From positions 1 through 22,526 of the IMG/VR virus record IMGVR_UViG_3300032334_001181: a stretch of 22,526 nucleotides of DNA. One strand, 5' to 3'. This document shows, one piece after another, positions 561 to 21,582 of the stretch. Below the pieces are notes generated by a model that worked only from the letters and a program-made list of their open reading frames with translations, made no database searches and was not told the origin of the DNA. Made by a program: the position numbers and the translations under genes. The stretch comes from a virus. The first letter of the stretch is position 1. Each line of letters opens with the position of its first letter.

Positions 561-1222
561 AGGTAAGTCCAACCACATTTAGTTTGTTTTTGTCTACCAT
601 TTTTTAAATGATTAAATACACCAATACTTAAATTGCAATATTCGGACATCTTAGTTAAAGACAATTCAACTATTTCATTGGTTTTAATATTTAACCATTT
701 TATTTTATTTTTTTCATTTTTGGTATTACTCATCAATTGTTTTGATTTTTCACTTTGTTTATTACCACCTTTAGCCATATTACCGTTTATTTTACGAGTT
801 TCAGCAGCTATTTTACCGTATTTACTTCTTTCTTCTGTTGTTATTTTATTAGTCCATGGGTTTAGTTTGTAATATTCTTTTAATGATAGACTTATTTTTA
901 TTTTAGTTTCATCACTTTGAATACCACCATTACCACCTTCAGTTAAATTATAACCATTTGGTGTAATCGAATTTAATGTTTTAATATAATATATTTCCAT
1001 ATTACAACACTCTTCAATATTGGTACAAGTATGTAACACCTCCCACTTAAAATTATCTATACCATATTTTCTAATTGCATCTAAAAATATATAATGATAA
1101 TGTTTACCTTTTTTATACCTAGATTTATAAACGTGGCCTCTAATTCTTTCAGCTAATGTTCTTGTTGTATAACCAATATATACCTTATCATTAATTAAGT
1201 TAGTTACTTTATAGACTAACAT
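551..1222 (-). CDS. GIY-YIG homing endonuclease, free-standing
   Basis: A 223-aa homing-type nuclease that would cut DNA and promote its own spread. The GIY-YIG module is at residues 3-90: VYKVTNLINDKVYIGYT at 3-19, an arginine-containing AERIRGH near 24-30, and a candidate metal-binding Glu in MEIYYI (about 76). A Gly-rich GYNLTEGGNGG (90-100) leads into a NUMOD3-like basic helical segment, and the C-terminus (CNLSIGVFNHLKNGR...CGWTYL) resembles a NUMOD1/HTH DNA-binding unit. This is the usual architecture of phage homing endonucleases. It starts inside the last codons of the ribbon-helix-helix gene (14-nt overlap), implying translational coupling. It opposes the surrounding + strand genes, which fits a mobile insertion. 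Confidence 0.9.
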   Translation of the reverse strand: MLVYKVTNLINDKVYIGYTTRTLAERIRGHVYKSRYKKGKHYHYIFLDAIRKYGIDNFKWEVLHTCTNIEECCNMEIYYIKTLNSITPNGYNLTEGGNGGIQSDETKIKISLSLKEYYKLNPWTNKITTEERSKYGKIAAETRKINGNMAKGGNKQSEKSKQLMSNTKNEKNKIKWLNIKTNEIVELSLTKMSEYCNLSIGVFNHLKNGRQKQTKCGWTYLGR

Positions 1223-1361: not shown

Positions 1362-1385
1362 ATTGTAAATCTTTTGCTTTACAAT
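1362..1385 (-). promoter_or_regulatory. Candidate operator: perfect 8-bp inverted repeat before the RHH gene
   Basis: ATTGTAAA (1362-1369) and TTTACAAT (1378-1385) form a perfect inverted repeat with an 8-nt spacer, immediately upstream of the RHH start codon at 1361. The half-site ATTGTAAA recurs at 1417-1424 and its core TGTAAA at 1393-1398. On the minus strand an ATATTTAT stretch (1384-1391) overlaps the outer arm, so a bound repressor could block transcription or translation start. Confidence 0.5.
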
Positions 1386-1431
1386 AAATATATGTAAAAT
1401 GTATAAAAGACTAATAATTGTAAAAATAAAT

Positions 1432-1441
1432 TTACCTACCT
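1432..1441. repeat. 10-bp direct repeat, copy 2 (right edge of endonuclease cassette)
   Basis: This is an exact copy of TTACCTACCT at 551-560. It covers the stop codon and final Gly-Arg codons of the 48-aa basic protein. Joining the two copies would put the stop of the 302-550 gene directly against the stop of the basic-protein gene. Confidence 0.45.
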
Positions 1442-1578
1442 TGCGACTTGTATTGCTTCTTGTAATTTTTAGAAGTTTTGTTTTTAGATGTTCCTTTTTT
1501 AGAATGAATACCTGGTCTTTTTGTTGTTGTTTTTTTTAAAACAGAAGTTCCACTCCCACCTTTACTACCTTTTGCCAT
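1432..1578 (-). CDS. Small basic protein with Gly/Ser-rich N-terminus and QGR C-terminus, 48 aa
   Basis: A short reading frame from ATG at 1578 to TAA at 1432-1434. It begins MAKGSKGGSGTSVLKKTT and ends KNYKKQYKSQGR, with many Lys, Ser and Thr residues and the central motif TKRPGIHSKKGTSKNK. From memory, similar short Lys-rich proteins ending in YKxQGR with an RPGxHxK motif occur in Bacteroidota and their phages; their role is unknown and I could not check this. The composition suggests nucleic-acid contact or disorder. An ATATTTAT element lies 16 nt upstream of its start (minus strand, 1595-1602). It is the first gene of the leftward set. Confidence 0.75.
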   Translation of the reverse strand: MAKGSKGGSGTSVLKKTTTKRPGIHSKKGTSKNKTSKNYKKQYKSQGR

Positions 1579-1594
1579 AACTATAAATTTATTT

Positions 1595-1602
1595 ATAAAT
1601 AT
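1595..1602 (-). promoter_or_regulatory. ATATTTAT element upstream of the small basic protein
   Basis: On the minus strand ATATTTAT ends 16 nt before the ATG at 1578. This is close to the 15-nt spacing of the same octamer before the genes at 7963, 8643 and 15139. The octamer is expected several times by chance in DNA this AT-rich, so this copy alone is weak. Confidence 0.3.
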
Positions 1603-1641
1603 AATAACAAATATTAAACACTATATTTATTTAAAAATATT

Positions 1642-1672
1642 AATCAATCGAAAGGTTGATTTTTTGGTTTTT
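1642..1672 (+). terminator. Hairpin with GAAA tetraloop and T-run
   Basis: AATCAATC (1642-1649), loop GAAA, GGTTGATT (1654-1661) form an 8-bp stem followed by T-rich sequence interrupted by GG. No + strand gene ends nearby: the closest is at 550, with the reverse-strand cassette between. It may stop read-through from the tRNA side, or act as a structured element at the promoter, because its 3' arm holds the -33-like box of the next gene. Confidence 0.6.
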
Positions 1673-1686
1673 TAATTGTATATTTG
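1655..1686 (+). promoter_or_regulatory. Bacteroidota-type promoter for the 1692 gene (leaderless)
   Basis: GTTGA (1655-1659), 19 nt, then TATATTTG (1679-1686), matching the -33/-7 arrangement of Bacteroidota primary-sigma promoters. Only 5 nt separate the -7 box from the ATG at 1692, so the transcript should start at or next to the start codon. Confidence 0.7.
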
Positions 1687-1691
1687 TGATT

Positions 1692-1961
1692 ATGAAAAAC
1701 ATGATATTTTTAGATTATGATTCAGAGCGAGAAGGGAATGAAATTAGAATTGGTAAACCAAACCAAGAGGCCCCAACAGACAAAGCTATTGAATTAGAGA
1801 TATTAACTTCAGATGTTGATTTATTAACAGATGGGTTGATTAAATTAATTAGTGAGGCCCATAAAATGGGTTATTGGGATAAATCAACAATATTAACAGA
1901 AGTTGTTGACAAATTATTAAAAGAGAAATATGACAAATCAGGAGAAAGCATTAATGTATGA
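1692..1961 (+). CDS. Hypothetical protein, 89 aa
   Basis: I chose the ATG at 1692 (MKNMIFLDYDSERE) because an upstream TTG extension would run through the promoter. The protein is acidic, with a likely alpha-helical C-terminal half (DLLTDGLIKLISEAHKMG...LTEVVDKLLKEKYDK). No family is recognised. The next gene starts 32 nt before this stop, in another frame, so the two are probably translationally coupled. Confidence 0.75.
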   Translation: MKNMIFLDYDSEREGNEIRIGKPNQEAPTDKAIELEILTSDVDLLTDGLIKLISEAHKMGYWDKSTILTEVVDKLLKEKYDKSGESINV

Positions 1962-2121
1962 AGCGATTGTTGCTGAAGGTGACAAATTAAATAGAGAAAA
2001 ATCTAGATTAAAAGCTGAAAACGCTGGCATAAATATGTCACCAGAAAGACAAAAAGAAGTTGCAGATATCGATAGAAGGTTATTAATTTTAGAAGCTAGG
2101 TTGAACGAATTGATTAGATAA
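1930..2121 (+). CDS. Small coiled-coil hypothetical protein, 63 aa
   Basis: Largely one predicted coiled coil: heptad-like Leu/Ile spacing in KLNREKSRLKAEN and in RRLLILEARLNELIR, with a short break around INMSPERQ. A second in-frame ATG at 1954, preceded by GGAGAAAG, could be the real start and would shorten it to 55 aa. No function is recognised; such small coiled coils often bind partner proteins. Confidence 0.65.
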   Translation: MTNQEKALMYEAIVAEGDKLNREKSRLKAENAGINMSPERQKEVADIDRRLLILEARLNELIR

Positions 2122-2124
2122 GTT

Positions 2125-2427
2125 ATGGCTAAGGTTAGGGCTAAAGTTAAAACGGAACCACAAACACAAAACGTGGAACCAACTAAAGTTAGGTCAGTTG
2201 CTAAACAACCAACTAAAAAAGTTGAAGCACAACCCAAAGTAGTTGAAAAGAAAGTTGATGATAAAAAATCAACATCAGATAGTCGATTTGAAAGACATAA
2301 AGCTTCTGGTGATTTAATCAAACGTGCTGAAATATCTGAAAAAGTTAAACAAGGTTTACTTAGGTGGGCATTCTATGGGATAGAAAATGACAATGGGTAT
2401 CAGTATTATTTAAAAATCAAAAAATAG
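2125..2427 (+). CDS. Lys-rich hypothetical protein with disordered N-terminal half, 100 aa
   Basis: Residues 1-55 are low-complexity and rich in Lys, Val, Pro, Gln and Thr (repeats of the type KVEAQPKVVEKKV), probably disordered. Residues 56-100 look folded (DSRFERHKASGDLIKRAEIS..., then LLRWAFYGIENDNGYQYYL). It starts 3 nt after the previous stop. No family is recognised; the basic linker suggests nucleic-acid or multi-partner binding, which is inference. Confidence 0.7.
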   Translation: MAKVRAKVKTEPQTQNVEPTKVRSVAKQPTKKVEAQPKVVEKKVDDKKSTSDSRFERHKASGDLIKRAEISEKVKQGLLRWAFYGIENDNGYQYYLKIKK

Positions 2428-2431
2428 TTAT

Positions 2432-2860
2432 ATGGAACTACAAAAACAAATCAGTGCAGATTTAGTTGCTGCAATGAAAGCAAAAGACACAACAACATTA
2501 AATGTGTTAAGAGTATTAAAAGGTGAAATTCAAAGGGGTGAACAATCATCAAACGGTAAGATTGAATTATCAGATGCTGATATTGTTAAGTTGGTTAAAA
2601 AATCGATTGATGGTATCAATGAAACTGGTGGTGACCAAGCTGAAGTTGCTATACTTGAAAAGTATATGCCAAAACAAATGACCGAACTTGAAATTCAATT
2701 ATCGGTAACATCATTAATATTAGGTAATAACTATAATTCACCTAAAGATATGGGTAAAATTATGGGTTATTTTAATCAAAACTACGCTGGTCAATATGAT
2801 GGTAAGGTACTATCTGAAGTTGTTAAGAACTTATTAACGAACACTGATTCAATTGTGTAA
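2432..2860 (+). CDS. GatB/YqeY domain protein
   Basis: This 142-aa protein matches the YqeY family across its length: an N-terminal helical unit (ISADLVAAMKAKDTTTLNVLRVLKGEIQR) and a C-terminal part with YMPKQMTELEI and the hallmark KDMGKIMGYF. YqeY domains resemble the tRNA-binding tail of the amidotransferase subunit GatB. Their role is not settled but is thought to involve tRNA or aminoacyl-tRNA, which fits a genome carrying tRNA genes. The normal family length is about 145-150 aa, so it is complete. It is one base out of frame-coupled contact with the next small gene (TAATG). Confidence 0.88.
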   Translation: MELQKQISADLVAAMKAKDTTTLNVLRVLKGEIQRGEQSSNGKIELSDADIVKLVKKSIDGINETGGDQAEVAILEKYMPKQMTELEIQLSVTSLILGNNYNSPKDMGKIMGYFNQNYAGQYDGKVLSEVVKNLLTNTDSIV

Positions 2861-3012
2861 TGGATAGTAACGAAAGATTAATCGAGGATATTAAAAAGTT
2901 AATCAAATTCTATGAGGGGATACCACAAAGTACCCCTCAATTAGAATTATACGTTAAAAAACTTCATCAGCAATTAGATGAACTAACAAACGAACAAAAT
3001 AATCAAAAATGA
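2860..3012 (+). CDS. Small helical hypothetical protein, 50 aa
   Basis: A short gene linked on both sides: its ATG shares the last A of the yqeY-like stop (TAATG) and its TGA overlaps the next ATG (ATGA). It begins MDSNERLIEDIKKLIKFYEG and continues with a short loop (IPQSTPQLE) and a second helix (LYVKKLHQQLDELTNEQNNQK), suggesting a helical hairpin. The double overlap and absence of stops support a real gene. No function is recognised. Confidence 0.65.
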   Translation: MDSNERLIEDIKKLIKFYEGIPQSTPQLELYVKKLHQQLDELTNEQNNQK

Positions 3013-3212
3013 GTAAATCTGTTTTAGTAGCTGTGGCTAATGATGGCCAACAAAGTATGCCATTAGATGTTGTTAGTAAATGGGACCCAGATAAGATGTC
3101 ATTCTTTGGTGACACAGTTTTTTTTAAAGTTGAAGATACATATTTTTCGATGAAAAAATTAGATTTTTGCAATATTTTCACAGAAAAGTGTGCATTTATA
3201 AAATATAAATAA
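3009..3212 (+). CDS. Hypothetical protein, 67 aa
   Basis: The start ATG overlaps the upstream stop (ATGA). It reads as a small beta-rich protein (SVLVAVANDG, then MSFFGDTVFFKVEDTYFSMKKLDF) with no signal peptide or membrane segment. No family is recognised. The -33-like part of the next promoter lies within its last codons. Confidence 0.65.
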   Translation: MSKSVLVAVANDGQQSMPLDVVSKWDPDKMSFFGDTVFFKVEDTYFSMKKLDFCNIFTEKCAFIKYK

Positions 3213-3220
3213 TATATTTG
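3189..3220 (+). promoter_or_regulatory. Bacteroidota-type promoter for the 3224 gene (leaderless)
   Basis: TGTGC (3189-3193), 19 nt, TATATTTG (3213-3220). The ATG at 3224 follows after only 3 nt, the shortest gap in the window, so the transcript would start at the start codon or inside it. Confidence 0.6.
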
Positions 3221-3223
3221 CGT

Positions 3224-3607
3224 ATGGCATTATTAAAATTTGAATTAAAAGAAGACCACATAAAGTTATTAAAACAACTTAGATGGTCTATAAAATCAGA
3301 CCAGATTATATCTAAAGGTGATGATAATGAAGAATATGGTGATTCACCATTTGGTGGTGATGATTTGGTTGAAGATATGTGTATCATATTAAACGGTAGA
3401 CCGAGTGATTTTGACCCCCTTGATGATGAACAACTTGTTTCTGAAGTGTCTGATGAAGAAAAAACTAAATTGTTGGAATTGTTCAATGAATTACCAACAG
3501 CATTAGATATTATACTATACACTAGTTCATTTGAACTTGGACACTATAAGAGTAAATGGTATGATAGAAACTGGATTAAATATGAACCTAAAATTAAATT
3601 AGTATGA
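3224..3607 (+). CDS. Acidic hypothetical protein, 127 aa
   Basis: The start is ATG 3224 (MALLKFELKEDHIKLLKQL), since a TTG two codons upstream belongs to the -7 box. The middle is acidic (DDNEEYGDSPFGGDDLVED) and the C-terminal part has SFELGHYKSKWYDRNWIKYEPK, rich in aromatic residues. No known domain is recognised. The next gene overlaps the stop (ATGA). Confidence 0.72.
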   Translation: MALLKFELKEDHIKLLKQLRWSIKSDQIISKGDDNEEYGDSPFGGDDLVEDMCIILNGRPSDFDPLDDEQLVSEVSDEEKTKLLELFNELPTALDIILYTSSFELGHYKSKWYDRNWIKYEPKIKLV

Positions 3608-3798
3608 GTAGATTTGAAGAAGCATACATGATTGTTAAAGTTTTAACAAAAAAAGGTGGTAAACCACAACATGTATTCCTTGTTGATAGCAATAATGAAG
3701 TTTTGGAATTTGATACTGAAGATGAAGCTAAAAATATAGCTGAATTATTTGAAACAAATTCTGAAAATGGTTGGATGTATTATGTTAAAAAGGTTTAA
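3604..3798 (+). CDS. Hypothetical protein, 64 aa
   Basis: ATGA overlap with the preceding gene. It reads as a small alpha/beta protein: YMIVKVLTKKG and HVFLVDSNNEVLEFDT as strands, then a helix (EDEAKNIAELFETNSE) and a final strand (WMYYVKKV). No known family; probably co-expressed with its neighbours. Confidence 0.68.
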   Translation: MSRFEEAYMIVKVLTKKGGKPQHVFLVDSNNEVLEFDTEDEAKNIAELFETNSENGWMYYVKKV

Positions 3799-3800
3799 CT

Positions 3801-4412
3801 ATGAATAATACTACATTCAATTTTAAATTATTACCACATAATAAAGTTTGGTTTACATCAGACCCACATTTTGGTCATGCTAATATTATCAAGTATTGTA
3901 AAAGACCATTTGAAAATGTTGATGATATGAATCAAATATTAATTGATAATTGGAATATGGTTGTTGACCATGATGATTTAATCATATGTGGTGGTGATTT
4001 TGCGTTGGGTAATTCAAAAAGTACTATTTCGGTACTTAATCAACTAAATGGGAATAAAATATTAATCAAAGGTAATCATGAAAAATCTGTACTTAGTAAC
4101 AAAGAAGCTAGGTCATTTTTCAATGGTGGTATATACGATATTTTGGAAATTACAATACTGGACGAAGAAGTATCAGATGGGTTCCAGGATATAATATTAT
4201 GTCATTATCCAATGGTTACTTGGGATAAATCACATAGAGGTTCCTGGCAGCTATTTGGTCATGTTCATGGTATGTTAGATGGTGATAAAAGATTATCACC
4301 GAATCAAATGGATATTGGTGTTGATTCTAATGGGTTTAGACCTATTTCATACCAAGAAGTGAAAGAAATCATTACAGTACAAAACTTAGATAGAATTAAA
4401 AATGGAAAATAA
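3801..4412 (+). CDS. Calcineurin-like metallophosphoesterase
   Basis: This 203-aa protein carries the full set of metallophosphoesterase metal ligands: D-x-H in SDPHFGH (20-26), GGDF (64-67), GNHE (91-94), the histidine in ILCHYPM and GHVHG near the C-terminus. It therefore should bind two metal ions and hydrolyse a phosphoester; the substrate (nucleotide, cyclic nucleotide or nucleic acid end) cannot be read from sequence. The length fits small phage and bacterial single-domain members. It starts 2 nt after the previous stop and overlaps the following HAD-like gene by 11 nt. Confidence 0.88.
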   Translation: MNNTTFNFKLLPHNKVWFTSDPHFGHANIIKYCKRPFENVDDMNQILIDNWNMVVDHDDLIICGGDFALGNSKSTISVLNQLNGNKILIKGNHEKSVLSNKEARSFFNGGIYDILEITILDEEVSDGFQDIILCHYPMVTWDKSHRGSWQLFGHVHGMLDGDKRLSPNQMDIGVDSNGFRPISYQEVKEIITVQNLDRIKNGK

Positions 4413-4878
4413 TTTAACAGACCCATACATCAATGACCTAAGATGTATTAAGCGGTTAATCAGTGAGTGGGTTAAACACAAATCATTAATAATCGCTTAT
4501 GATTATGATAACACTGTTTTTGATTACCATAATCTTGGTTATGAATTTAATGGTTTAATAAAATTATTAAGAGAGTGTAAAAAATATGGTGGTAAATTTA
4601 TCGTTTATAGTTGTTCACCACTTGATAGACATTATGAGATGAAATCTTATTTAAATGGTAATGATATTCCATTTGATACTATTAATGAAAACATTGTGGA
4701 GTTACATGGTGGTGGTGGTAAACTATTTTATAATATATTTTTAGATGATAGAGCTGGTCTTAAATCAGCATATTCTGTATTGCATGCAGCACTAAACGTT
4801 ATGAAAGAAGAACCAAGTGATGAAAAAGAAGCATTTGAAATATTAAAAACAATATATGGAAATCGAGCCACTTATTAA
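4402..4878 (+). CDS. HAD-like hydrolase, 158 aa
   Basis: A HAD-fold signature is visible: motif I AYDYDNTV (residues 32-39, nucleophile Asp34 and Asp36), a motif II-like Ser in IVYSCSP, and motif III acid residues in IFLDDRAG. The FNGLIKLLRECKKYGG helix after motif I is typical of small phage HAD proteins. It probably removes phosphate from a small molecule or nucleic acid; no substrate can be named. The order is MPE, HAD, sigma with 11- and 23-nt overlaps, a translationally coupled run. Confidence 0.78.
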   Translation: MENNLTDPYINDLRCIKRLISEWVKHKSLIIAYDYDNTVFDYHNLGYEFNGLIKLLRECKKYGGKFIVYSCSPLDRHYEMKSYLNGNDIPFDTINENIVELHGGGGKLFYNIFLDDRAGLKSAYSVLHAALNVMKEEPSDEKEAFEILKTIYGNRATY

Positions 4879-5440
4879 TAATGATGAAGACCTCAATGCG
4901 TTATTAATTGGTTGTAAAAACAACGAATTAAAGTATCAAGCAAAGTTTTATTCTAAATATTATTTTATAGTATATAATACATGTAAAAAATATGTTAAAG
5001 TCTCGTGTGATGCTGAAGATATAACTCAAGAAGTATTCATAAAATTAATGAATAAGTTACATACATTTAATGGTAAATCACCAGGTCAATTTGTTAACTG
5101 GTTAAAAATGGTTAGTAAAAACAATACTGTAGATATTCTTAGAACAAAAAAAACATTCATTAATATTGATGATGTATCATTAGATATTGGATTTGATAGT
5201 ATTGATTTAAACATTATTGATGGTCCTGATAATAAAATGGAATGTGATATAAAAAACTCAATATCTAAATTAAGTCCACAATTCAAACGAGTTTTTGAAT
5301 TATACTATTTGGATAATTACACTCACCAAGAAATTGCTGATGAATTAAATATCAATGTCGGCACATCAAAATCAAATCTATTTAAAGCTAAAATGAAACT
5401 AGCGCAATTGCTTAAGCAATATAATAATAATTTTAATTAA
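4856..5440 (+). CDS. ECF-type RNA polymerase sigma factor
   Basis: A 194-aa two-domain sigma factor. Region 2 is at about residues 25-100, with CDAEDITQEVFIKLMNKLHTF and the -10-reading segment FVNWLKMVSKNNTVDILRTKK. Region 4 is at about 133-187, with SPQFKRVFELYYLDNYTHQEIADEL and HTH NVGTSKSNLFKAKMKL. Size and motifs match Bacteroidota ECF sigma factors; region 3 is absent. It would redirect host RNA polymerase to phage or host genes. Its start lies 23 nt inside the HAD-like gene. No anti-sigma factor gene is seen beside it. A second, RpoD-like sigma is at 14180. Confidence 0.9.
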   Translation: MEIEPLINNDEDLNALLIGCKNNELKYQAKFYSKYYFIVYNTCKKYVKVSCDAEDITQEVFIKLMNKLHTFNGKSPGQFVNWLKMVSKNNTVDILRTKKTFINIDDVSLDIGFDSIDLNIIDGPDNKMECDIKNSISKLSPQFKRVFELYYLDNYTHQEIADELNINVGTSKSNLFKAKMKLAQLLKQYNNNFN

Positions 5441-5445
5441 AATTT

Positions 5446-7026
5446 ATGAAATTTAAAGATTTAACAGAAGCGGATAAGGAGTATGCTTATGGCATTTATA
5501 CAAACAAGGACTTATCTTGGGATGATAGAATGTCTAAACTTGTGGAATTTTTCGGAAAATCAGAAAGAACAGTTAGAAAATGGTGTTCAGAGAAACTAAA
5601 CTTCAAAGAAAAGGTTGATATTGAACCAGAACAATATGTAAAAGCCAAAGAAAGAAAACACGATAAATCTAAAAAAAGGTTTATCATAACTTGGGCCCAA
5701 AATAATACACCAGTTCACACTAATTTCTTGAAAAACATTGAAGCTTATGGTGATTACATTGGTGCTGATATTCACATAATCGCTGGTAGATATAAGAACC
5801 CAACATCAGTATGGACTCAAGGGCAAGAAGATAATGAATTTTGGGATAAATCAGTATTAGATTATTTAGATGCTAATAGACATGATGTACATAAATTCGT
5901 TTCTATATTATCCGACATTAAAGTACACCCAACGGCAGTTAATCCATTAACTGGATTACATAGCATTAGCGGTGTTAATTCTTGTGTTGTAGGTTCACCT
6001 AAGGTACAGATGGAGATGATTCCAGTATTGGAAGGAAATCGACCTAAAATGATGTTGACTACTGGTGCTATTACTATGCAGAACTACACTGATTCAAAAT
6101 CAGGTAAGGTAGGTGAGTTTCACCATACATTTGGTTTCGTAATTGTTGAAATTAAAGATGGTGAAGTATTCTTTGCTAGACAAGTAACAGCTAGTGATAA
6201 GAATGGTAGTTTTACTGATTTATTCTACAATGTGAATAAAGGTATTGTAACTAAAATTAATCAGATTGAAGGTATTGTATTAGGTGATTTACATATTGGT
6301 CACCATGATGAAGATGTATTAAATACGACATTTGAATTAATGGATGAACTAAAACCTAAACACGTTATTTTACATGATGTTTTTGATGGTGATTCAATTA
6401 GTCACCACCAAATGAAAGACCCGTTCGTTCAATACGGTAAAGAAGTACAAGGGACTAATGATTTAGGTAGGGAAATTGATGACATGTTGGAGCAATTAAA
6501 TCGTTTTGCTAAATTTGATAATGTTGTTATCGTAAGAAGTAATCACGATGATTTTGTTGACCGATGGTTAAAGAATGAGGATTGGAAGAAACAACCCACA
6601 TTCAAGAATGCACCATTATATATGGATTTAAGTGCTAGATTACTTAGACAATATGCAAATGGGTTTGAAGATGTTAAAGGTGTTATTCCAGAATTGATTA
6701 ACGATAGATTCCCTAAGTTTATCACATTAGGTAGAAGCGCATCATATAAGATTAAAGATTGGGAGTGTGGCCAACATGGTGACATTGGTAGTAATGGTTC
6801 TAGAGGTTCTTTATTACAGTATAGAAAATTAAATACTAAAATAATAGTAGGACATTATCATTCACCAGGTCGTAAAGATGGTGCAATTGCAGTTGGTACT
6901 TCAACTAAATTAAGAGTTGGTTATAATCAAGGGGCCAGCACTTGGTTGCAATCACATGTGATTATACATTCTGATGGAAGAGCGCAACATATTAATTTTA
7001 TAAATGGTGAATATACAACATTGTAA
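5446..7026 (+). CDS. HTH plus metallophosphoesterase protein (possible T5 A1-like nuclease)
   Basis: A 526-aa multidomain protein. Residues 20-52 resemble a helix-turn-helix (LSWDDRMSKLVEFFGKSERTVRKWCSEKL). Residues 75-270 form a middle domain that I cannot name. Residues 275-480 hold metallophosphoesterase motifs: GDLHIGHH (280-287), HDVFDG (310-315), RSNHDD (364-369), GQHGD (442-446) and GHYHSPG (469-475), so metal-dependent phosphodiester cleavage is likely. The FDG...SHHQMKDP arrangement and total size recall, from memory, the A1 pre-early DNase of phage T5 and related phage proteins; this would need checking. If right, it may degrade or nick DNA. It begins 5 nt after the ECF sigma gene and its stop overlaps the next start (TAATG). 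Confidence 0.8.
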   Translation: MKFKDLTEADKEYAYGIYTNKDLSWDDRMSKLVEFFGKSERTVRKWCSEKLNFKEKVDIEPEQYVKAKERKHDKSKKRFIITWAQNNTPVHTNFLKNIEAYGDYIGADIHIIAGRYKNPTSVWTQGQEDNEFWDKSVLDYLDANRHDVHKFVSILSDIKVHPTAVNPLTGLHSISGVNSCVVGSPKVQMEMIPVLEGNRPKMMLTTGAITMQNYTDSKSGKVGEFHHTFGFVIVEIKDGEVFFARQVTASDKNGSFTDLFYNVNKGIVTKINQIEGIVLGDLHIGHHDEDVLNTTFELMDELKPKHVILHDVFDGDSISHHQMKDPFVQYGKEVQGTNDLGREIDDMLEQLNRFAKFDNVVIVRSNHDDFVDRWLKNEDWKKQPTFKNAPLYMDLSARLLRQYANGFEDVKGVIPELINDRFPKFITLGRSASYKIKDWECGQHGDIGSNGSRGSLLQYRKLNTKIIVGHYHSPGRKDGAIAVGTSTKLRVGYNQGASTWLQSHVIIHSDGRAQHINFINGEYTTL

Positions 7027-7373
7027 TGAGAAACAAATACGATAAACTGGAAACTGAAATCCAAGAACTTTGGAAAAAAAAGATGTTAACTAGTGATGAA
7101 ATTGTTAACATCTTTAAGAAGTATGAGGAATCAAATTTAAATAAAATTAAAAAATTAAACAAACGTAGGTCATTTGAGCATAATAGGATACGTGGTGGGT
7201 TGAAACAAACTATAAATGCTCACGGCCCAATAGATATGAAATTAATTGGTAGTGCAACCAAAAGAATATCTGGGTCGTTAATAACGGATGAAAATATAAT
7301 ACCAAAAGGTAATTTTAATAGCTTTGTTTGGGGTGTAATTATAGGTTCATTAATGATATTATTATTAGTATGA
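7026..7373 (+). CDS. Tail-anchored coiled-coil membrane protein, 115 aa
   Basis: The N-terminal half is charged and helical (KYDKLETEIQELWKKKMLTSDEIVNIFKKYEES...), the middle is basic, and the final 17 residues (FVWGVIIGSLMILLLV) form one membrane span ending at the C-terminus, so the body should face the cytoplasm. No family is recognised. It is coupled at both ends: TAATG with the upstream gene and ATGA with the 2H phosphoesterase gene. Confidence 0.72.
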   Translation: MRNKYDKLETEIQELWKKKMLTSDEIVNIFKKYEESNLNKIKKLNKRRSFEHNRIRGGLKQTINAHGPIDMKLIGSATKRISGSLITDENIIPKGNFNSFVWGVIIGSLMILLLV

Positions 7374-7939
7374 AAGATTTAATTAGAACATTATTTAGGA
7401 AAAAAATAAATGAAGGTAAACACACTGACAAATTTGAATATGGCTGTGTTATGGTTTACTTAGATGTTAATAAGGATGATTGGGATTCTTTAGAAACAAT
7501 GGTTGATAAGGAAGATTTATATCTTGGTAAAGATGGTGATAGGGGTTATGGTTTTGAAACCGAACCACATGTTACAGTCCTTTATGGATTACATGGTGAT
7601 ATTCCATTAGGAGATATTGAGGAAGTTATAAACAAATTGAAAAGACCCGTATTGAAGATGCAAAAAGTTTCTTCATTCGACAATCCACAATTCGGTGTAT
7701 TAAAATTTGATGTTGAAAGTAAGGATTTGCATAAAGAAAATAAAAAATTTACAGAATTCCCACATACAACATCATATCCAGACTACCACCCACATTGCAC
7801 AATAGCATACATCAAACCAGATAAGATTGATGAGTATGTGAAAAAATTCAAAAGCATTGAACCAATCAATGTTGTTGTTGAAAAAATAGTTTACTCGATG
7901 GCTGATGGAACAAAAAAGGAATATTCCTTTGCTGATTAA
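7370..7939 (+). CDS. 2H phosphoesterase (2'-5' RNA ligase-like); possible packaged RNA-repair or anti-CBASS enzyme
   Basis: The start is ATG 7370, overlapping the upstream stop (ATGA), giving 189 aa. Two H-x-T motifs define the 2H family: EPHVTVLYG (His67, Thr69) and HPHCTIAYI (His142, Thr144). Such enzymes hydrolyse 2',3'-cyclic phosphates or 2'-5' bonds; phage members include Acb1, which destroys CBASS cyclic nucleotides. The sequence cannot tell RNA repair from anti-CBASS. The first 15 residues (MKDLIRTLFRKKINE, then GK) look like an added basic leader ending in I-N-E/G, comparable to T4 capsid-targeting peptides cut by the prohead protease. The HAD phosphatase downstream has a similar leader, suggesting a pair acting together. 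Confidence 0.85.
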   Translation: MKDLIRTLFRKKINEGKHTDKFEYGCVMVYLDVNKDDWDSLETMVDKEDLYLGKDGDRGYGFETEPHVTVLYGLHGDIPLGDIEEVINKLKRPVLKMQKVSSFDNPQFGVLKFDVESKDLHKENKKFTEFPHTTSYPDYHPHCTIAYIKPDKIDEYVKKFKSIEPINVVVEKIVYSMADGTKKEYSFAD

Positions 7940-8642: not shown

Positions 8643-9101
8643 ATGAAAATTACAAAGACTAGTGATGAAGGTATTGATTTAATTAAATCATTCGAAGGTT
8701 TTAGTTCAAAACCATACCTATGCCCAGCAAAAATACCAACAATTGGCTACGGCGCAACTTTTTATCCTGACGGTAAAAAAGTTACCATGAAAGACGCATC
8801 TATTACGGAAGAAGAAGGTGTTAAATTATTAAAAAGTATGTTGGTTAAGTTTGAACAATATGTTGATTCATATTGTATTGATACAGTTAATCAAAATCAA
8901 TTTGACGCTTTAGTTTCATTCTGTTATAATTTAGGTCCAGCTAATTTAAAATCTAGCACTTTACTTAAAAAAGTTAATACTAATCCAAATGACCCAACAA
9001 TTGAAGCAGAATTTATGAAATGGACTAAAGCTGGTGGTAAAACACTTAAAGGTTTAGTTAGAAGAAGAGAAGCTGAATCTGAATTATATTTTAATAAATA
9101 A
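8643..9101 (+). CDS. Endolysin: GH24 lysozyme (muramidase)
   Basis: A 152-aa phage lysozyme that would cut the MurNAc-GlcNAc bond of peptidoglycan. The catalytic spacing E-8aa-[D/C]-5aa-T is visible with Glu18 (KSFEG), Cys27 and Thr33 (PTIGYG), so it belongs to the E-C-T subgroup. Further family marks are NQFDALVSFCYNLG and LKGLVRRREAESELY. There is no signal peptide, so release to the wall needs a holin or another route; no clear holin is adjacent. It sits between terminators at 8581 and 9715 and shares a two-gene unit with the YkuD-like protein 6 nt downstream. Unlike the reverse-strand lysozyme it has no N-terminal extension. Confidence 0.95.
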   Translation: MKITKTSDEGIDLIKSFEGFSSKPYLCPAKIPTIGYGATFYPDGKKVTMKDASITEEEGVKLLKSMLVKFEQYVDSYCIDTVNQNQFDALVSFCYNLGPANLKSSTLLKKVNTNPNDPTIEAEFMKWTKAGGKTLKGLVRRREAESELYFNK

Positions 9102-9107
9102 TAAAAA

Positions 9108-9713
9108 ATGAGTTATACAAAAGAACAAATTGAAACAGCTGTAAAAGCTAAAGGATATAAATGGTTTGAAGATGACGCTAACAAAGGTTTTGATGTAAAC
9201 ATTGTTGGTGTTAGAAATAATGCAGCAAGTGTTGCAGATAAAGTAACAAATGTATTTGATGATTTCTTAACTATATCATTTAAAGAAAATGGTGTTTGGA
9301 AATTTTATTGTTGGAATGCAACTACTGACCCAGGTAAAAAAGGTGTTATGCAATTCCATAATAATAAAGGTGTTGCTAGATTAGTACCAGGACAATATAG
9401 AAGTGTTTGGTCAATCGATAAACACCAAGGTAAATACGATGCACTTTGCCAAAGAAATGGTGATGTTAAAGTTTGGAGAGATGCTAATAGAAATTTAACA
9501 TTTGAAGAAGTTGTAACTGACACTGGTATGTTCGGTATCAATATACATAAAGCTGGTCAAGATTCTACATGGGTAGAAAATTGGAGTGAAGGTTGCCAAG
9601 TATTCAAAAGAGTTAAAGACTTTGATGAATTCATGCAGATTTGTAAGAAAGCAGCAAAAATACATGGTAACAAATTTAGTTATTCATTATTAGAAAGCAC
9701 TGACATAATTTAA
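9108..9713 (+). CDS. YkuD-like (L,D-transpeptidase fold) cell-wall enzyme
   Basis: A 201-aa protein whose C-terminal half carries GINIHKAG followed by WSEGCQVF, matching the H-x-x-G ... S-x-G-C catalytic pattern of L,D-transpeptidase (YkuD) folds with a cysteine nucleophile. From memory, similar proteins beginning KGYKWF and containing IDKHQGKYDALCQR are common in phages. In this setting, directly after a lysozyme, cleavage of peptidoglycan peptides is more likely than cross-linking; the reaction is inferred. There is no signal peptide. It ends at a strong terminator. Confidence 0.75.
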   Translation: MSYTKEQIETAVKAKGYKWFEDDANKGFDVNIVGVRNNAASVADKVTNVFDDFLTISFKENGVWKFYCWNATTDPGKKGVMQFHNNKGVARLVPGQYRSVWSIDKHQGKYDALCQRNGDVKVWRDANRNLTFEEVVTDTGMFGINIHKAGQDSTWVENWSEGCQVFKRVKDFDEFMQICKKAAKIHGNKFSYSLLESTDII

Positions 9714-9714
9714 A

Positions 9715-9742
9715 AAAAAAGCCAAAGAAATTTGGCTTTTTT
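9715..9742 (+). terminator. Rho-independent terminator of the lysis genes
   Basis: An A-run, GCCAAA (9721-9726), loop GAAA, TTTGGC (9731-9736), then six T. The A and T runs can extend the stem. It begins 1 nt after the stop codon at 9713. Its 3' arm also contains the TTTGG box of the next promoter. Confidence 0.92.
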
Positions 9743-9763
9743 CATTTATTATAAGTATCTTTG
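9731..9763 (+). promoter_or_regulatory. Bacteroidota-type promoter for the RNase R gene
   Basis: TTTGG (9731-9735), 20 nt, TATCTTTG (9756-9763); the ATG at 9784 follows after 20 nt, so this transcript has a short leader. The TTTGG box is the 3' arm of the upstream terminator hairpin. Confidence 0.75.
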
Positions 9764-9783: not shown

Positions 9784-11322
9784 ATGTTTAAAAAAGGAGA
9801 TATTGTAACTGGTGAAATAGGCCTTACTGGATTTGGTTCTGGTTATGTTACAAATGAACATATAAAACGAGGGATATATGTTAATAAAAATAATGCAAAT
9901 AAAGCATTGCATTTAGATAAGGTTAATGTTGAATTAACTAAAGTTGAGGGTGGACAATTTGAGGGTAAAGTTGTAGAAATAATAGAAAGATTCAAAACTG
10001 AGTTTGTTGGTACGATGCAAATATCTGTTAAACATGCTTTCTTTATTCCAGACAACAAAAGAATGAATATTGATTTTTTCATACCATTAAATAAATTATC
10101 TGGCGCATCTGATGGTGACAAAGTTGTTGCAAAGTTAACAACTTGGGGTGAGAATCAAAAGAACCCAAATGGTGAAGTAATTAGAGTTCTTGGTAAATCT
10201 GGTAACAATGATGTTGAAATACACAGTATACTTGAAGAATATAATTTACCATATGAATTCAAACAGAATGTAATCAACGAATCCGAATTAATATCTGACG
10301 TTATTTCTGAAAAAGAAATTACTAAGAGATTGGATATGCGTGATATATTAACATTTACTATTGATGGTGAAACTGCCAAAGATTTGGACGATGCATTATC
10401 TGTTCAATGGGTTGACGGTAACATTCAAGTTGGTGTTCATATTGCCGATGTATCTTATTACGTTAAACCTAATAGTGCAATTGATGATGAAGCATATAAA
10501 CGTGGGACATCAGTATATTTAGTCGATAGGGTTGTTCCTATGTTACCTGAGAAATTAAGTAACAATCTTTGTTCGCTTAACCCACATACTGATAAATTAG
10601 TTTACTCATTTATTTTTACACTTGACCGAAATGGTAAAGTAATTAATGAAAAGTTTTGTCGTGGAATTATCAATTCTAATTATCGATTAACCTACACTGA
10701 AGTTCAAAAAGTAATTGAAGGTGGTAATACACATAATATAGAATTGAAAAATGCTATATTAGATTTGCATAAGTATGCCAGTAAAATTAGAAAAGTTAGA
10801 AGCAGCAAAGATTCATTAAAATTTAGGGGAACTGAAGTTAAATTTGATTTAGATGGTGATGGTAAACCAGTTGGTGTTTATTTTACTGAACAAAAAGAAT
10901 CTAATTGGTTGATTGAGGAATTCATGGTACTTACAAATAGACAAGTTTGTGAATATGTAACTAAAAAATCAGTACCAACATTACATAGAACACATGATGA
11001 ACCAGACCCAACTAAATTAGAGTCTTTAAAAACTTTCGTAGAATCGGTTGGTTATAAATTAGACTTATCCGATGATAGGAAAATTAAAGATAAACTGAAT
11101 GGTTTGTTAGCTGAAGTTAGTGGTTCACCAGAAGAAAATATTATTAGCAACTTAGTTGTTAGGTGTATGGCCAAAGCCAATTACCAAACTAAGAATATAG
11201 GTCACTATGGGTTGGGGGTTAAGTATTATATGCATACAACTAGTCCAATTAGAAGATATCCAGATTTAATATTCCACAGAATAATTAGTGATGTGTTGGG
11301 TAAAGATGGTTATTTAATGTAA
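9784..11322 (+). CDS. rnr: RNase R, catalytic part (N-terminal piece of a split gene)
   Basis: A 512-aa 3'-to-5' exoribonuclease. The cold-shock-like domains cover about residues 1-130. The RNB catalytic domain follows, with the four active-site Asp in TIDGETAKDLDD (194, 200, 202, 203), then VGVHIADVSYYV, GTSVYLVDRVVPMLPE with LCSLNP, and the late TTSPIRRYPDL (485-495). It stops right after FHRIISDVLGKDGYLM, where normal RNase R continues into a helix and an S1 domain. That missing part is encoded at 12396-12779, beyond a reverse-strand lysozyme gene whose stop overlaps this one by 9 nt. The N-terminal helical domain of large host RNase R is also absent. I chose ATG 9784 over the TTG one codon upstream. 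Confidence 0.93.
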   Translation: MFKKGDIVTGEIGLTGFGSGYVTNEHIKRGIYVNKNNANKALHLDKVNVELTKVEGGQFEGKVVEIIERFKTEFVGTMQISVKHAFFIPDNKRMNIDFFIPLNKLSGASDGDKVVAKLTTWGENQKNPNGEVIRVLGKSGNNDVEIHSILEEYNLPYEFKQNVINESELISDVISEKEITKRLDMRDILTFTIDGETAKDLDDALSVQWVDGNIQVGVHIADVSYYVKPNSAIDDEAYKRGTSVYLVDRVVPMLPEKLSNNLCSLNPHTDKLVYSFIFTLDRNGKVINEKFCRGIINSNYRLTYTEVQKVIEGGNTHNIELKNAILDLHKYASKIRKVRSSKDSLKFRGTEVKFDLDGDGKPVGVYFTEQKESNWLIEEFMVLTNRQVCEYVTKKSVPTLHRTHDEPDPTKLESLKTFVESVGYKLDLSDDRKIKDKLNGLLAEVSGSPEENIISNLVVRCMAKANYQTKNIGHYGLGVKYYMHTTSPIRRYPDLIFHRIISDVLGKDGYLM

Positions 11323-12330
11323 CCCACTTTTGAATAATTTTGATTCTCTAGCTCTTCTAGTTTCTAGACCTGGATATTTATTAAACATTTGGCTGCTGGT
11401 GCTTTTTATTGCTTCAGCAGCTTCATTAAATTTATTACGTTTAACAAATTGTATAAATTCACTTTGTCTAAAATTATCGATTCCCATATTATAAATCATT
11501 GAAACCATTGCATCATACATTGGCTGCGTGATATTTGGTTTAATACCATCACCTCTCCATTCATTTAATACCCTATCTAAACCATTTGCTGCTAATTGCA
11601 TATCATCTTTTAATAAGATTTCTGCTTGTTCTTGAGTTATAGTAGTTTTTCCTGGTGTTATTTCATTATACTTTGGTAAGAAATCATATTTACCACCATT
11701 ATCACCTCTACTTGGGTCCTTAAATACGGCATGACCATATCCAATTGTATATGCACCATCACCTAAATCATATGCGGTTAGAACTGGTTTACCAGCAATA
11801 CCTTCTTCTTGTTTTAATGATTGAACTAAATTATTTGAAAATGACAACTTAGTAGGCGCTACTTTTAGTTTTTGTTCCTTCTTACTTATTTCTTTACCCA
11901 ATAATTGAGTAATCATAATACCTTCCGTAGATTTAGCGTCTACAGTATTTTCAACACTAACTAATTGATTATAACCCATAGTCAAAGCCATTGATGCAAT
12001 TGCAATTTTAATGAAACGAGATTTTAATTTGTCTGGTAGTTCAGCAACTTTAGCGACCAAACTTTTAACGAAATCAATTCCTTGTTCAGCAGTTCTAACA
12101 TATGATGCTGATTTTTTAATGTCAGATTCAATACCATTTATTCTATCATAGAATTTATTATTAATTAAATCCCACTCATAATGCGCTGAATCAGTATCAT
12201 CAGATTCCAATAATAATGAAGTAACTTCTGGGTATGATTCAACCAGCAATCTTGATTCATTTATTGCCTTATTTAAGTAATAAGCACTACTTAATCTATT
12301 AATATTATCAAATGTTATAATTTTCATCAT
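11314..12330 (-). CDS. GH24 lysozyme with long N-terminal extension, possibly packaged in the virion; interrupts rnr
   Basis: This 338-aa protein has a C-terminal GH24 domain from about residue 165: KQEEG (candidate catalytic Glu175/176), AYDLGDGAYTIGYGH with Asp188/191 and Thr195, then MYDAMVSMIYNMG and LETRRARESKLF. Spacing between Glu and Thr is longer than in T4 lysozyme. Residues 1-160 are an extension with a hydrophobic stretch (IKIAIASMALTMG, 107-119). The first 43 residues contain three [I/L]-x-E sites followed by Ser (after 25, 31 and 42), resembling prohead-protease sites, so it may be a virion enzyme used at entry. Its last two codons (His, stop) are read from the reverse complement of the end of the RNase R catalytic piece. 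Confidence 0.87.
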   Translation of the reverse strand: MMKIITFDNINRLSSAYYLNKAINESRLLVESYPEVTSLLLESDDTDSAHYEWDLINNKFYDRINGIESDIKKSASYVRTAEQGIDFVKSLVAKVAELPDKLKSRFIKIAIASMALTMGYNQLVSVENTVDAKSTEGIMITQLLGKEISKKEQKLKVAPTKLSFSNNLVQSLKQEEGIAGKPVLTAYDLGDGAYTIGYGHAVFKDPSRGDNGGKYDFLPKYNEITPGKTTITQEQAEILLKDDMQLAANGLDRVLNEWRGDGIKPNITQPMYDAMVSMIYNMGIDNFRQSEFIQFVKRNKFNEAAEAIKSTSSQMFNKYPGLETRRARESKLFKSGLH

Positions 12331-12332
12331 AT

Positions 12333-12340
12333 ATAAATAT
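12333..12340 (-). promoter_or_regulatory. ATATTTAT element upstream of the reverse-strand lysozyme
   Basis: On the minus strand GGATATTTAT lies 2 nt before the first ATG (12330) and 5 nt before the second (12327). It matches the octamer seen before the genes at 7963, 8643 and 15139, but at a much shorter distance. No TAnnTTTG box is found upstream of this gene. Confidence 0.3.
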
Positions 12341-12359
12341 CCTTTTTTAAGACAAAAAT

Positions 12360-12391
12360 GTTGATATTTTAATTATAAATTAGTATATTTG
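12360..12391 (+). promoter_or_regulatory. Bacteroidota-type promoter for the RNase R S1 piece (leaderless)
   Basis: GTTGA (12360-12364), 19 nt, TATATTTG (12384-12391), then TTAA and the ATG at 12396. The 4-nt gap predicts a leaderless mRNA. It gives the separated C-terminal RNase R part its own transcription start. Confidence 0.75.
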
Positions 12392-12395
12392 TTAA

Positions 12396-12779
12396 ATGAA
12401 GTATAAAGTTGACGAATTAGATAAAATGGCAATGCATTTATCGCAGAGGGAGAGGGTTGCTCAAAAAGCAAGTAGAGATAGTATTAAGTATAAACAATGT
12501 CAATACCTCATGGACAAACTTGGTAAAATATACGATGGTGTGATTACATCAGTTCAAGATTATGGAATGTTCATTGAAATACCTGAAAATGGTTGTGAAG
12601 GACTTGTTAAAACTAGTGATATTGGTTTTAGAAGTTGGTCATCAGATGTTAAAAATCATTGTTTTATTGAAGAAATTACTGGTAGAAAAATGAGACTTGG
12701 TGATGAAATTAAAGTAATAATTAAATCGATAGATTTAGAAAAAAAAGAAATTAATATGACTGTCCTCGATATTTATTAA
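12396..12779 (+). CDS. rnr: RNase R C-terminal piece: linker helix plus S1 RNA-binding domain
   Basis: A 127-aa protein that reads as the missing end of RNase R. Residues 7-38 (LDKMAMHLSQRERVAQKASRD then SIKYKQCQYLMDKLG) match the conserved helix after the RNB domain, where ERDSIKYKQ-type sequence is typical of Bacteroidota RNase R. Residues 41-125 form an S1 domain (GKIYDGVITSVQDYGMFIEI, ENGCEGLV, LGDEIKVIIKSID). Joined to the catalytic piece the order would be continuous, without obvious loss. It has its own leaderless promoter and start codon, so it may be made separately and act in trans, or be a decaying fragment. The intact frame over its full length argues for a functional protein. Confidence 0.88.
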   Translation: MKYKVDELDKMAMHLSQRERVAQKASRDSIKYKQCQYLMDKLGKIYDGVITSVQDYGMFIEIPENGCEGLVKTSDIGFRSWSSDVKNHCFIEEITGRKMRLGDEIKVIIKSIDLEKKEINMTVLDIY

Positions 12780-13726: not shown

Positions 13727-14167
13727 ATGGAAGTAATAGTTAAAAATAAAAAATCATCATATGAATATGAGTTTATTGATAAGTTCACTGCTGGAATTAA
13801 ATTAATTGGTAGTGAAGTTAAGTCAATAAGGAATCATAAGGTATCAATATCTGAGGCATATTGTTACATTAAAGATGGTGAAGTGTATATTAAGGGTATG
13901 AACATATCTGAATACAAAGAAAGTGGTATTCACACAAATCATGACCCAATCAGATTAAGGAAATTATTGTTAAACAAAAAAGAAATAATAAAACTAGATG
14001 AAGAAATTCAACAAAAGGGCTTGACAATAGTACCCATTAGTCTTATCATTAATGACAAGGGTCTAATTAAACTTGAGATAGCATTATCTAAAGGTAAAAA
14101 ACTTCACGACAAACGTGATTCGATTAAAAAACGAGATTTAGAAAGAGAGTTAAACATTAAATTTTAA
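13727..14167 (+). CDS. smpB: SsrA (tmRNA)-binding protein SmpB
   Basis: A 146-aa protein matching SmpB over its whole length. Marks are NKKSSYEYEF, FTAGIKLIGSEVKSIRNHKVSISEAYCYI, GEVYIKGMNISEY, NHDPIRLRKLLLNKKEI, KGLTIVPISLI and SKGKKLHDKRDSIKKRDLERE. SmpB binds tmRNA and carries it to stalled ribosomes; its basic tail enters the empty mRNA channel. The tail here is short (RELNIKF). A phage copy is unusual, and RNase R, which degrades the non-stop mRNA after rescue, is encoded just upstream. I found no tmRNA gene in the window, so it would have to work with host tmRNA or one encoded elsewhere. It is followed 12 nt later by the RpoD-like sigma gene, probably on the same transcript. Confidence 0.95.
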   Translation: MEVIVKNKKSSYEYEFIDKFTAGIKLIGSEVKSIRNHKVSISEAYCYIKDGEVYIKGMNISEYKESGIHTNHDPIRLRKLLLNKKEIIKLDEEIQQKGLTIVPISLIINDKGLIKLEIALSKGKKLHDKRDSIKKRDLERELNIKF

Positions 14168-14179
14168 ACATAAGTATAT

Positions 14180-15067
14180 ATGAGACAATTAAAAATCAAT
14201 CAGAAAATTACAAACAGAAATTCAAGTAAATCATTTGAAAAGTATTTATCAGATGTTAGAAGTATCAAATCATTTGAAACTCCAGATGCAGAATACCAAT
14301 GTGCATTAAAAGCATATAATGGTGATAAAAATGCTATCAATGAATTAGTTGAAAGAAACTTAAAGTTTGTAATTAGTGTTGCTAAACAATATGCTTGTTC
14401 ATTAGCACCACTTGAAGAATTGGTTAATGAGGGTAATTATGGGTTGATTGAAGCTGCTGAAAAGTTTGAACCATCTCGTGGATTTAAATTCATATCATAT
14501 GCTGTTTGGTATATTAGAAAAAATATAACAGATTATATGAATAGACATTCTAGGTCAATTAGAATACCTATCAATAAAATAACTGAGTTGAATAAATTGA
14601 AAAAAGAAATTGAAAAACTTGAACAAACAAATGAAAGACCAGTATCATCAATTGATTTGGTTGGACTTGAGGGTTCGGATTTAAATTTCGATAACATTAA
14701 TATGTTATTAAGTTTGGATTCAATGTCAGTTTCATCATTAGATGCACCTTTCACTTCAGATGGTGATAGTGGTTCAATGATTGATGTTATTGAAAATACT
14801 AATTCATTAAGTTCAGACCACTTAGTTAATGAAAATGATTTTTTTAAAGTAATGGAATCTGCATTATCTGGTTTAACAAATAGACAAAGAGAAATCATAA
14901 CATTGACATATGGTTTGAATGGTCAAGAGCCACTTAGTTTGATTGAAATTGGTGAAAGAGTTGAAATGAGTCGTGAAGGTGTTAGACAATTAAGAAAGAA
15001 AGCACTTAAGATTCTAAAAATAAACATGACTCGTAACGGGGTTAAAATAGAAATGTTTAATAATTAA
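14180..15067 (+). CDS. RpoD-like (sigma-70 group 1/2) RNA polymerase sigma factor
   Basis: A 295-aa sigma factor resembling the Bacteroidota primary sigma, whose N-terminus is also of the type MRQLKI..ITNR. Region 2 spans about 55-128 (LKFVISVAKQYA, EELVNEGNYGLIEAAEKF, GFKFISYAVWYIRKNITDYMN), then IRIPINKI. Region 4 spans about 225-282 (LTNRQREIITLTYGL and the HTH SLIEIGERVEMSREGVRQLRKKAL). Region 2.4 carries changes (YIRKNITDYMNRHSRS) relative to what I recall of host RpoD, so it may read a different -10 element; the ATATTTAT sites are candidates. It follows smpB by 12 nt and ends at a strong terminator. Confidence 0.93.
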   Translation: MRQLKINQKITNRNSSKSFEKYLSDVRSIKSFETPDAEYQCALKAYNGDKNAINELVERNLKFVISVAKQYACSLAPLEELVNEGNYGLIEAAEKFEPSRGFKFISYAVWYIRKNITDYMNRHSRSIRIPINKITELNKLKKEIEKLEQTNERPVSSIDLVGLEGSDLNFDNINMLLSLDSMSVSSLDAPFTSDGDSGSMIDVIENTNSLSSDHLVNENDFFKVMESALSGLTNRQREIITLTYGLNGQEPLSLIEIGERVEMSREGVRQLRKKALKILKINMTRNGVKIEMFNN

Positions 15068-21228: not shown

Positions 21229-21582
21229 ATGAAAAAGTTTATTTTAAAATTATTCACATTAGTATTTTTAATATCTTTGTTATCATTTACAAAAAGTGAT
21301 ATAACTGAATGTGTTGCAACTTGGTATGATAGACACGGTGCATCAACCGCATCTGGTATAAAAATGCATAAAGATTCATCAACAGCGGCATATAATTCAG
21401 TACCATTGCACACTAAATTAAAGATTGTTAACCCAGCTAATAATAAGTCTTGCATTGTAACTGTGACTGATAGAATGGCCAATAAAACACCAAATAGAAT
21501 TGATTTGAGTTACAAAGCTTTTGGTGAAGTCGCCAATCGTAGTCAAGGTAGAATAAACGTAATTGTAATTAAAATAAAATGA
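21229..21582 (+). CDS. Secreted RlpA-like double-psi beta-barrel protein
   Basis: A 117-aa protein with an N-terminal signal peptide (MKKFILKLFTLVFLISLLSF, about 1-22) and a mature RlpA-like barrel: CVATWYDRHGASTASGIKM, TAAYNSVPLHTKLKIVN, VTVTDRM (Asp81) and RIDLSYKAFGEVAN. RlpA proteins are septal lytic transglycosylases acting on peptidoglycan without stem peptides. A periplasmic phage copy could weaken the wall at lysis or remodel the host envelope. There is no SPOR domain. The lysine-hydrophobic signal lacks an obvious lipobox cysteine (C28 follows TE). It overlaps the next gene (ATGA). Confidence 0.85.
   Translation: MKKFILKLFTLVFLISLLSFTKSDITECVATWYDRHGASTASGIKMHKDSSTAAYNSVPLHTKLKIVNPANNKSCIVTVTDRMANKTPNRIDLSYKAFGEVANRSQGRINVIVIKIK

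Follow-up and report, generated by a model that had tools for sequence, protein, structure and literature searches.

A phage RNase R encoded in two pieces on either side of an antisense lysozyme gene, with splits at the same joint in related phages

A 22.5-kb virus fragment from IMG/VR (record IMGVR_UViG_3300032334_001181, positions 1 to 22,526; this whole stretch is referred to below as the window) encodes the domains of an RNase R in two genes with a lysozyme gene between them. This locus raises the question of how one ribonuclease came to be divided between two genes and whether their products still act as one enzyme. In our assessment, the gene probably underwent an insertional fission at a permissive joint, giving a two-chain RNase R that reassembles through its terminal RNB helix. 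Three genes of the window are concerned:

9784–11322, plus strand: RNase R catalytic piece, 512 aa, two cold-shock/OB domains and the RNB domain
11314–12330, minus strand: phage lysozyme with a long N-terminal extension (PF00959, E 7e-20), between the RNase R pieces
12396–12779, plus strand: RNase R S1 piece, 127 aa, the last RNB helix (RERVAQKASRDSIKYKQ) and the S1 barrel

The catalytic piece covered the full RNB model (PF00773, E 6.3e-110), and its N-terminal domains matched CSD2 (2e-33) and OB_RNB (2.4e-16). The catalytic aspartates D194, D200, D202, and D203 were invariant across the alignment. An earlier annotation made from the letters alone (the sequence-only reading) had assigned cold-shock and RNB domains with four catalytic Asp to this gene, in agreement with these matches. 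The open reading frame (ORF) begins at CSD1, the N-terminal helix-turn-helix (HTH) domain of a typical RNase R being absent, and ends in the loop after the helix ...FHRIISDVLG. The S1 piece (PF00575, E 1.6e-10) stops directly after the barrel and lacks the C-terminal K/R-rich tail of a typical RNase R. The two proteins matched phrog_13933 at positions 39–545 and 555–675 of 677, respectively; thus, almost nothing was lost at the break. They were likewise aligned to consecutive parts of Bacillus subtilis RNase R (8cdu, the closest solved relative of the catalytic piece), residues 68–575 and 591–703. The best solved structural matches of the S1 piece were RNase R chains, and in sequence and fold both pieces matched RNase R better than RNase II. 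Alignment to full-length RNase R, a check proposed in the sequence-only reading, therefore upheld its view of the protein starting at 12396 as the RNase R C-terminus with the last helix and S1 domain. The domain order CSD1-CSD2-RNB-S1 and the catalytic aspartates are shared with bacterial RNase R (5xgu, 7dic, 8cdu). Unlike the bacterial enzyme, the RNase R of the window is not a single polypeptide: it is encoded by two plus-strand ORFs with 1073 bases and an antisense gene between them. A 3'-5' hydrolytic exonuclease activity on structured RNA is putative for this enzyme. The intervening gene is a complete lysozyme gene, as had been claimed; its 3' end overlaps the catalytic ORF by 9 bp, with the lysozyme stop codon falling among the final codons of that ORF.

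Viral contigs were scanned with the catalytic protein, which yielded ten loci, and five further full-length loci, all distinct in sequence, showed the same split. Wherever the contig reached, the gene order was the same: catalytic piece, antisense lysozyme, S1 piece, two small genes, SmpB, and sigma factor. Identities among the lysozyme-split loci were 82–96% for the catalytic piece, 69–95% for the S1 piece, and 52–91% for the lysozyme; the distance from the lysozyme start to the S1 start was 65 bp in all of them except L008 (70 bp). In the latter locus, a patatin-like phospholipase gene (L008 2380–3351; PF01734, E 5e-24) is inserted immediately before the gene of the catalytic piece.

The ratio of nonsynonymous to synonymous substitutions (dN/dS, NG86) was 0.07–0.15 for the catalytic piece, with a value of 0.03 in one near-identical pair, and 0.08–0.16 for the S1 piece, with a value of 0.47 in the same pair, which has few changes only. 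The synonymous component (dS) was at least 1 for the most distant pairs, making their ratios rough. The low values in both genes mean that purifying selection acts strongly on the two RNase R pieces while they are split. For the lysozyme, dN/dS was 0.08–0.40, mostly 0.2–0.4.

Phage RNase R loci were gathered by a profile scan and by scans around two further split relatives. The S1 domain was encoded in the same ORF in 90 of the 107 distinct RNB sequences (a few of these 90, from human fecal records, resemble host rather than phage genes), while 15 were split and in 2 the S1 region lay off the contig end. Every split locus with sufficient flanks had both pieces; a lone piece was never seen. Intact huge-phage RNase R genes (LR745206, LR756502, and the IMG/VR relatives L025–L041, L063, L096) share the domain order and approximately 44–55% identity of the catalytic part with the window, but consist of a single gene without an insert. 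In jumbo-phage relatives, the intact gene is followed by SmpB and the sigma factor, as in the window. This shared order identifies the window locus as the ancestral site, and related phages with an unbroken gene and no lysozyme there, which the sequence-only reading had suggested looking for, do exist.

On the RNB tree (quick maximum-likelihood, SH-aLRT support only), the split label required four changes, all four forced by well-supported branches. The four split groups are the window clade with the lysozyme, L084, L251/L252, and L090 with L269–L273, and the tree thus points to at least four origins of the split. On the S1-only tree, which was poorly resolved, the S1 pieces of the window clade fell with the same jumbo relatives as on the catalytic tree, and those of L084 and L252 were placed beside their own intact sisters; each S1 piece therefore descends from the tail of its own gene. 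The intact relatives, the trees, and the dN/dS values agree with the earlier proposal that one ancestral RNase R gene was broken between RNB and S1 and that both parts were kept; the ORFs and coordinates given in the sequence-only reading were also correct. The idea that RNase R is generally split in Bacteroidota was rejected, since 80 of 80 bacterial loci were single ORFs. All of the 80 cellular sequences closest to the S1 pieces belonged to Bacteroidota, and the phage of the window is probably a large phage of this phylum.

All splits fall in one linker, a loop of 7 residues that precedes the last RNB helix. When mapped onto the AlphaFold model of L096, an intact relative (RNase R fold, mean pLDDT 88), the joint corresponds to loop 515–521 between helices 501–514 and 522–558, the second of these being long and running into the S1 barrel. 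The whole last RNB helix is thus carried by the S1 piece. The position of the joint in a surface loop would explain why a break is tolerated there. In the model of the window S1 piece (pLDDT 82, lower in the free helix), helices 5–27 and 30–39 precede the barrel. Few parts of the S1 pieces are as well conserved as the last RNB helix, whose identity is comparable in split and intact pairs.

The splitter was an antisense homing-endonuclease gene in three of the four split groups. An antisense insert between the RNase R pieces was found in L084, L252, L269, L271, L273, and L090, and the following were delimited at the same RNase R joint:

L084 8474–9574, minus strand: homing-endonuclease-like insert
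L090 7999–9270, minus strand: homing-endonuclease-like insert
L252 5815–6769, minus strand: homing-endonuclease-like insert

The inserts of L084 and L090 matched homing-endonuclease families (phrog_559, phrog_681, phrog_9084), and treble-clef repeats were present in those of L084 and L271; the remaining ones were called endonuclease-like by eye, from similar sequence. The insert is spread over two frames in L252 and broken by a stop in L090. In L251, an endonuclease-like gene lies downstream after another gene, and the split is only partly shown because the contig ends ahead of any S1 piece. As in the window, the antisense insert of these loci (L084, L251/L252, L090/L269/L271/L273) overlaps the 3' end of the catalytic gene, and the S1 piece has its own start (in L251 it would lie beyond the contig end). 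Unlike the lysozyme of the window, the inserts are homing endonucleases, intact or decayed, of independent origins. In L270 (6535–6906) and L272 (2022–2402), the insert is absent and both RNase R genes abut, stop beside start.

The last approximately 113 RNB residues before the insert of L084 and L252 were just 40–70% identical to close intact sisters, against approximately 93–97% over most of the upstream part; no comparable drop was present in the control pair L045/L071. Co-conversion of flanks during homing, described for T4-type homing endonucleases (PMC2988022), fits this pattern, and faster evolution of the tail would be an alternative. A free-standing gene of the GIY-YIG/NUMOD3 homing-endonuclease type is encoded elsewhere in the window (551–1222, minus strand).

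Regarding the lysozyme, a homologue was found approximately 22 kb from the unbroken RNase R in the intact relative L038, and most other intact relatives searched had no homologue of the window lysozyme; for these reasons the gene probably moved into the joint, be it on its own, aided by an endonuclease, or by taking the place of one. Its ancestral residence there was rejected in view of the distant L038 copy and of 12 phage records carrying more distant lysozyme homologues, in which no RNB domain was seen. Searches for boundary repeats and introns revealed no repeat, endonuclease remnant, or intron at the window break. The sequence-only reading had taken TTAATG at the end of the first piece and TTAAATG at the start of the second as a hint of the insertion point. 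This did not hold: the break ends read TTTAAAATAA / GCAAAATG in L002 and GTTGGGTAA / GCAAAATG in L003, and a target-site duplication was rejected, since relatives lack the pair and boundary repeats are absent.

Both RNase R genes are preceded by promoter-like elements:

about 9720–9742, plus strand: terminator-like hairpin preceding the TATCTTTG element of the catalytic gene
9756–9763, plus strand: TATCTTTG element resembling a promoter, 20 nt ahead of the catalytic-gene ATG
12361–12391, plus strand: leaderless promoter of the S1 gene, TTG-N20-TATATTTG, followed after 4 nt by the ATG

The TTG-N20-TATATTTG arrangement is of the Bacteroidota promoter type. The TATATTTG element before the S1 gene was conserved in all members examined (L002, L003, L005, L008), as was the start codon of the S1 piece in relatives. 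On the plus strand of the window, 9 of 13 TAT[AC]TTTG sites lay no more than 25 nt ahead of a start codon (P 6e-10), and the minus strand had none. The leaderless promoter and separate start of the S1 piece, already recognized in the sequence-only reading, are well supported by this conservation and clustering, and the two genes seem to use the same promoter class. A T4-like late promoter, TATAAATA, before the S1 piece looked conserved by eye and was rejected as unenriched in the window (5 seen, 7.6 expected).

Downstream, the conserved neighborhood continues with two genes:

13727–14167, plus strand: SmpB (PF01668, E 1.4e-52), the syntenic partner of RNase R in relatives
14180–15067, plus strand: sigma-70 family factor (phrog_351, E 1.4e-55), adjoining SmpB

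The RNase R of Escherichia coli acts on non-stop mRNAs together with SmpB and transfer-messenger RNA (tmRNA); it contacts SmpB through its S1 and K/R regions, and the S1 domain helps with structured substrates (PMC12320835; PMC3949413). The SmpB gene of the window starts 950 bp downstream of the S1 piece, resembling the B. subtilis rnr-smpB-ssrA operon (PMC12320835) in its position near RNase R. No tmRNA was found on the 22.5-kb window fragment; in six relatives of 306–508 kb it was detected above the Rfam cut-off, and in relative G018 the tag predicted by ARAGORN was AKSKTTATQVEELEIA. The position of SmpB and these tmRNAs suggest that the role is most likely ordinary RNase R work in a phage-carried rescue/decay module, performed by a two-chain enzyme. 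Its link with SmpB need not follow that of E. coli because the HTH domain and the K/R tail are missing. The window also encodes an ECF-like factor at 4856–5440, making two different sigma factors in 22 kb together with that at 14180–15067.

In the 44-kb relative L105, the same neighbors are arranged as p9108–lysozyme (minus strand)–g13235–SmpB–sigma factor, and neither an RNB nor an S1 domain was found anywhere on this contig, which is an incomplete genome fragment. Most simply, two deletions around the lysozyme would account for this state, and the joint loss fits a joint function of the two pieces. The L105 gene at 1372–3942, a homologue of window 5446–7026, contains an in-frame insert of approximately 320 aa that matched Hint weakly (PF01079, E 2.5e-5, below the cut-off) and is possibly an intein.

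These results can be arranged as follows. One ancestral RNase R gene was broken in the short loop that separates the last two RNB helices, with all conserved residues retained, and the lysozyme gene now fills the break on the opposite strand. Both proteins would be made simultaneously from promoters of one type, and the S1 piece would dock on the catalytic piece via the last RNB helix; the presence of this conserved helix on the S1 piece is the main structural argument for docking. Docking may rebuild the RNA entry funnel, and the heterodimer may degrade structured and non-stop RNA in the 3'-5' direction, as an ordinary RNase R does, beside SmpB and, probably, a tmRNA encoded by the phage itself. 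Without its partner, the catalytic piece probably retains basic nuclease activity. We infer reassembly, with the S1 chain acting in trans on the catalytic chain as the sequence-only reading had proposed, from the purifying selection, the conservation of the helix, and the co-retention and co-loss of the pieces.

Several observations weigh against reassembly. Removal of S1 is reported to stabilize E. coli RNase R and to change its RNase activity little (PMC12320835); since the S1-less enzyme stays active, the catalytic piece might not need a partner. The S1 piece of L008 compared with that of the window gave 0.65, against 0.69–0.89 (5–95% range) for intact pairs of equal RNB identity, indicating a possible relaxation of the L008 piece. 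In addition, the absence of RNase R from L105 covers the 44-kb contig, not a whole genome.

The same facts bear on a separation of function, in which the catalytic piece alone would be an RNase II/RNB-type nuclease and the S1 piece, under its own promoter, an RNA-binding protein or an adaptor to SmpB or the ribosome. The separate leaderless promoter of the S1 gene, the slightly faster divergence of the L008 S1 piece, the contacts of the E. coli S1 and K/R regions with SmpB, and the much RNase activity left after S1 loss (PMC12320835) speak for it. However, the last RNB helix, which should be of use only for docking, stays among the best-conserved parts of the S1 piece across independent splits; the pieces are never apart where flanks suffice and are both missing in L105; and the genes abut in L270 and L272, as expected of one functional unit. 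We therefore regard this separation as unlikely.

A further proposal is that the split is adaptive and was repeatedly selected in huge phages, the S1 chain serving as an exchangeable, separately timed specificity subunit (e.g., a recruiter of SmpB/tmRNA or the ribosome) that lets the enzyme alternate during infection between an RNase II-like and an RNase R-like mode; we consider this quite unlikely.

A dispensable RNase R, with the split as a recent pseudogenization, is suggested by L105, which lacks both pieces. Decay of the gene is nevertheless very improbable, given dN/dS of 0.07–0.16 in both pieces over dS up to about 1 or more and the conservation of the catalytic residues, S1 promoter, and S1 start. 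Rejoining of the pieces into a normal single chain by an intron, intein, or trans-splicing is suggested by the many phage gene interruptions that are introns or inteins and by the Hint-like insert of the L105 neighbor gene mentioned above. The insert of the window locus, however, is a complete gene read in its own frame from the opposite strand; all members have a stop and a start codon at the break, with an intein half at neither end; and lineages with abutting stop/start genes exist. No intron family matched the interval even at a permissive threshold, and no Hint domain was found in the window RNase R pieces. Intron or intein joining was rejected on these searches, and rejoining at the RNA or protein level has a minimal probability. 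An assembly chimera, which a metagenomic contig may invite, or a sequencing error, which the sequence-only reading had named as a refuting alternative, is refuted and has a practically negligible probability, because the same structure recurs in several independent contigs from different metagenomes with lysozymes 52–91% identical.

With insertional fission and a reassembling two-chain enzyme as the favored reading, the locus can be compared with known systems. Phage enzymes split by insertion include nrdA of Aeromonas phage Aeh1 (mobE), gene 43A/43B of Aeromonas phages, and T4 topoisomerase gene 60/39 (mobA), and for split nrdA and gp43 the enzyme is active or its parts co-purify (PMC2988022). 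The split RNase R is a variant within this class: as in these cases, an inserted gene cuts a contiguous enzyme gene into two frames, and intact homologues exist. Unlike those systems, the enzyme is RNase R, the place of a homing endonuclease is taken in the window by an antisense lysozyme, the joint was hit at least four times independently, and insert-free abutting split genes exist. No earlier report of a split RNase R was found in the literature searched, most subscription journals lying outside that search.

The repeated breaks (at least four) at the same joint raise the interest of this observation. They form a natural series at one loop, with the intact gene, live and decayed homing-endonuclease inserts, the lysozyme, abutting genes, and loss of both pieces, and this series makes it testable how selfish insertion turns one-chain into two-subunit enzymes. 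The locus also provides a ready-made two-part RNase R for asking about the role of S1 in RNA entry, SmpB recruitment, and stability, and points to phage-carried RNase R-SmpB-tmRNA modules.

Among the other genes of the window, four likely cell-wall enzymes were encoded (8643–9101, 9108–9713, 11314–12330, and 21229–21582): two lysozymes, an endolysin-like protein, and a DPBB lytic-transglycosylase-like protein. A 2H phosphoesterase-like protein (7328–7939), above the Pfam cut-off for the anti-CBASS family Acb1 (PF23474, E 1.2e-7), could be involved in counter-defence. A YqeY family protein was encoded at 2432–2860 (PF09424, E 1.3e-26).

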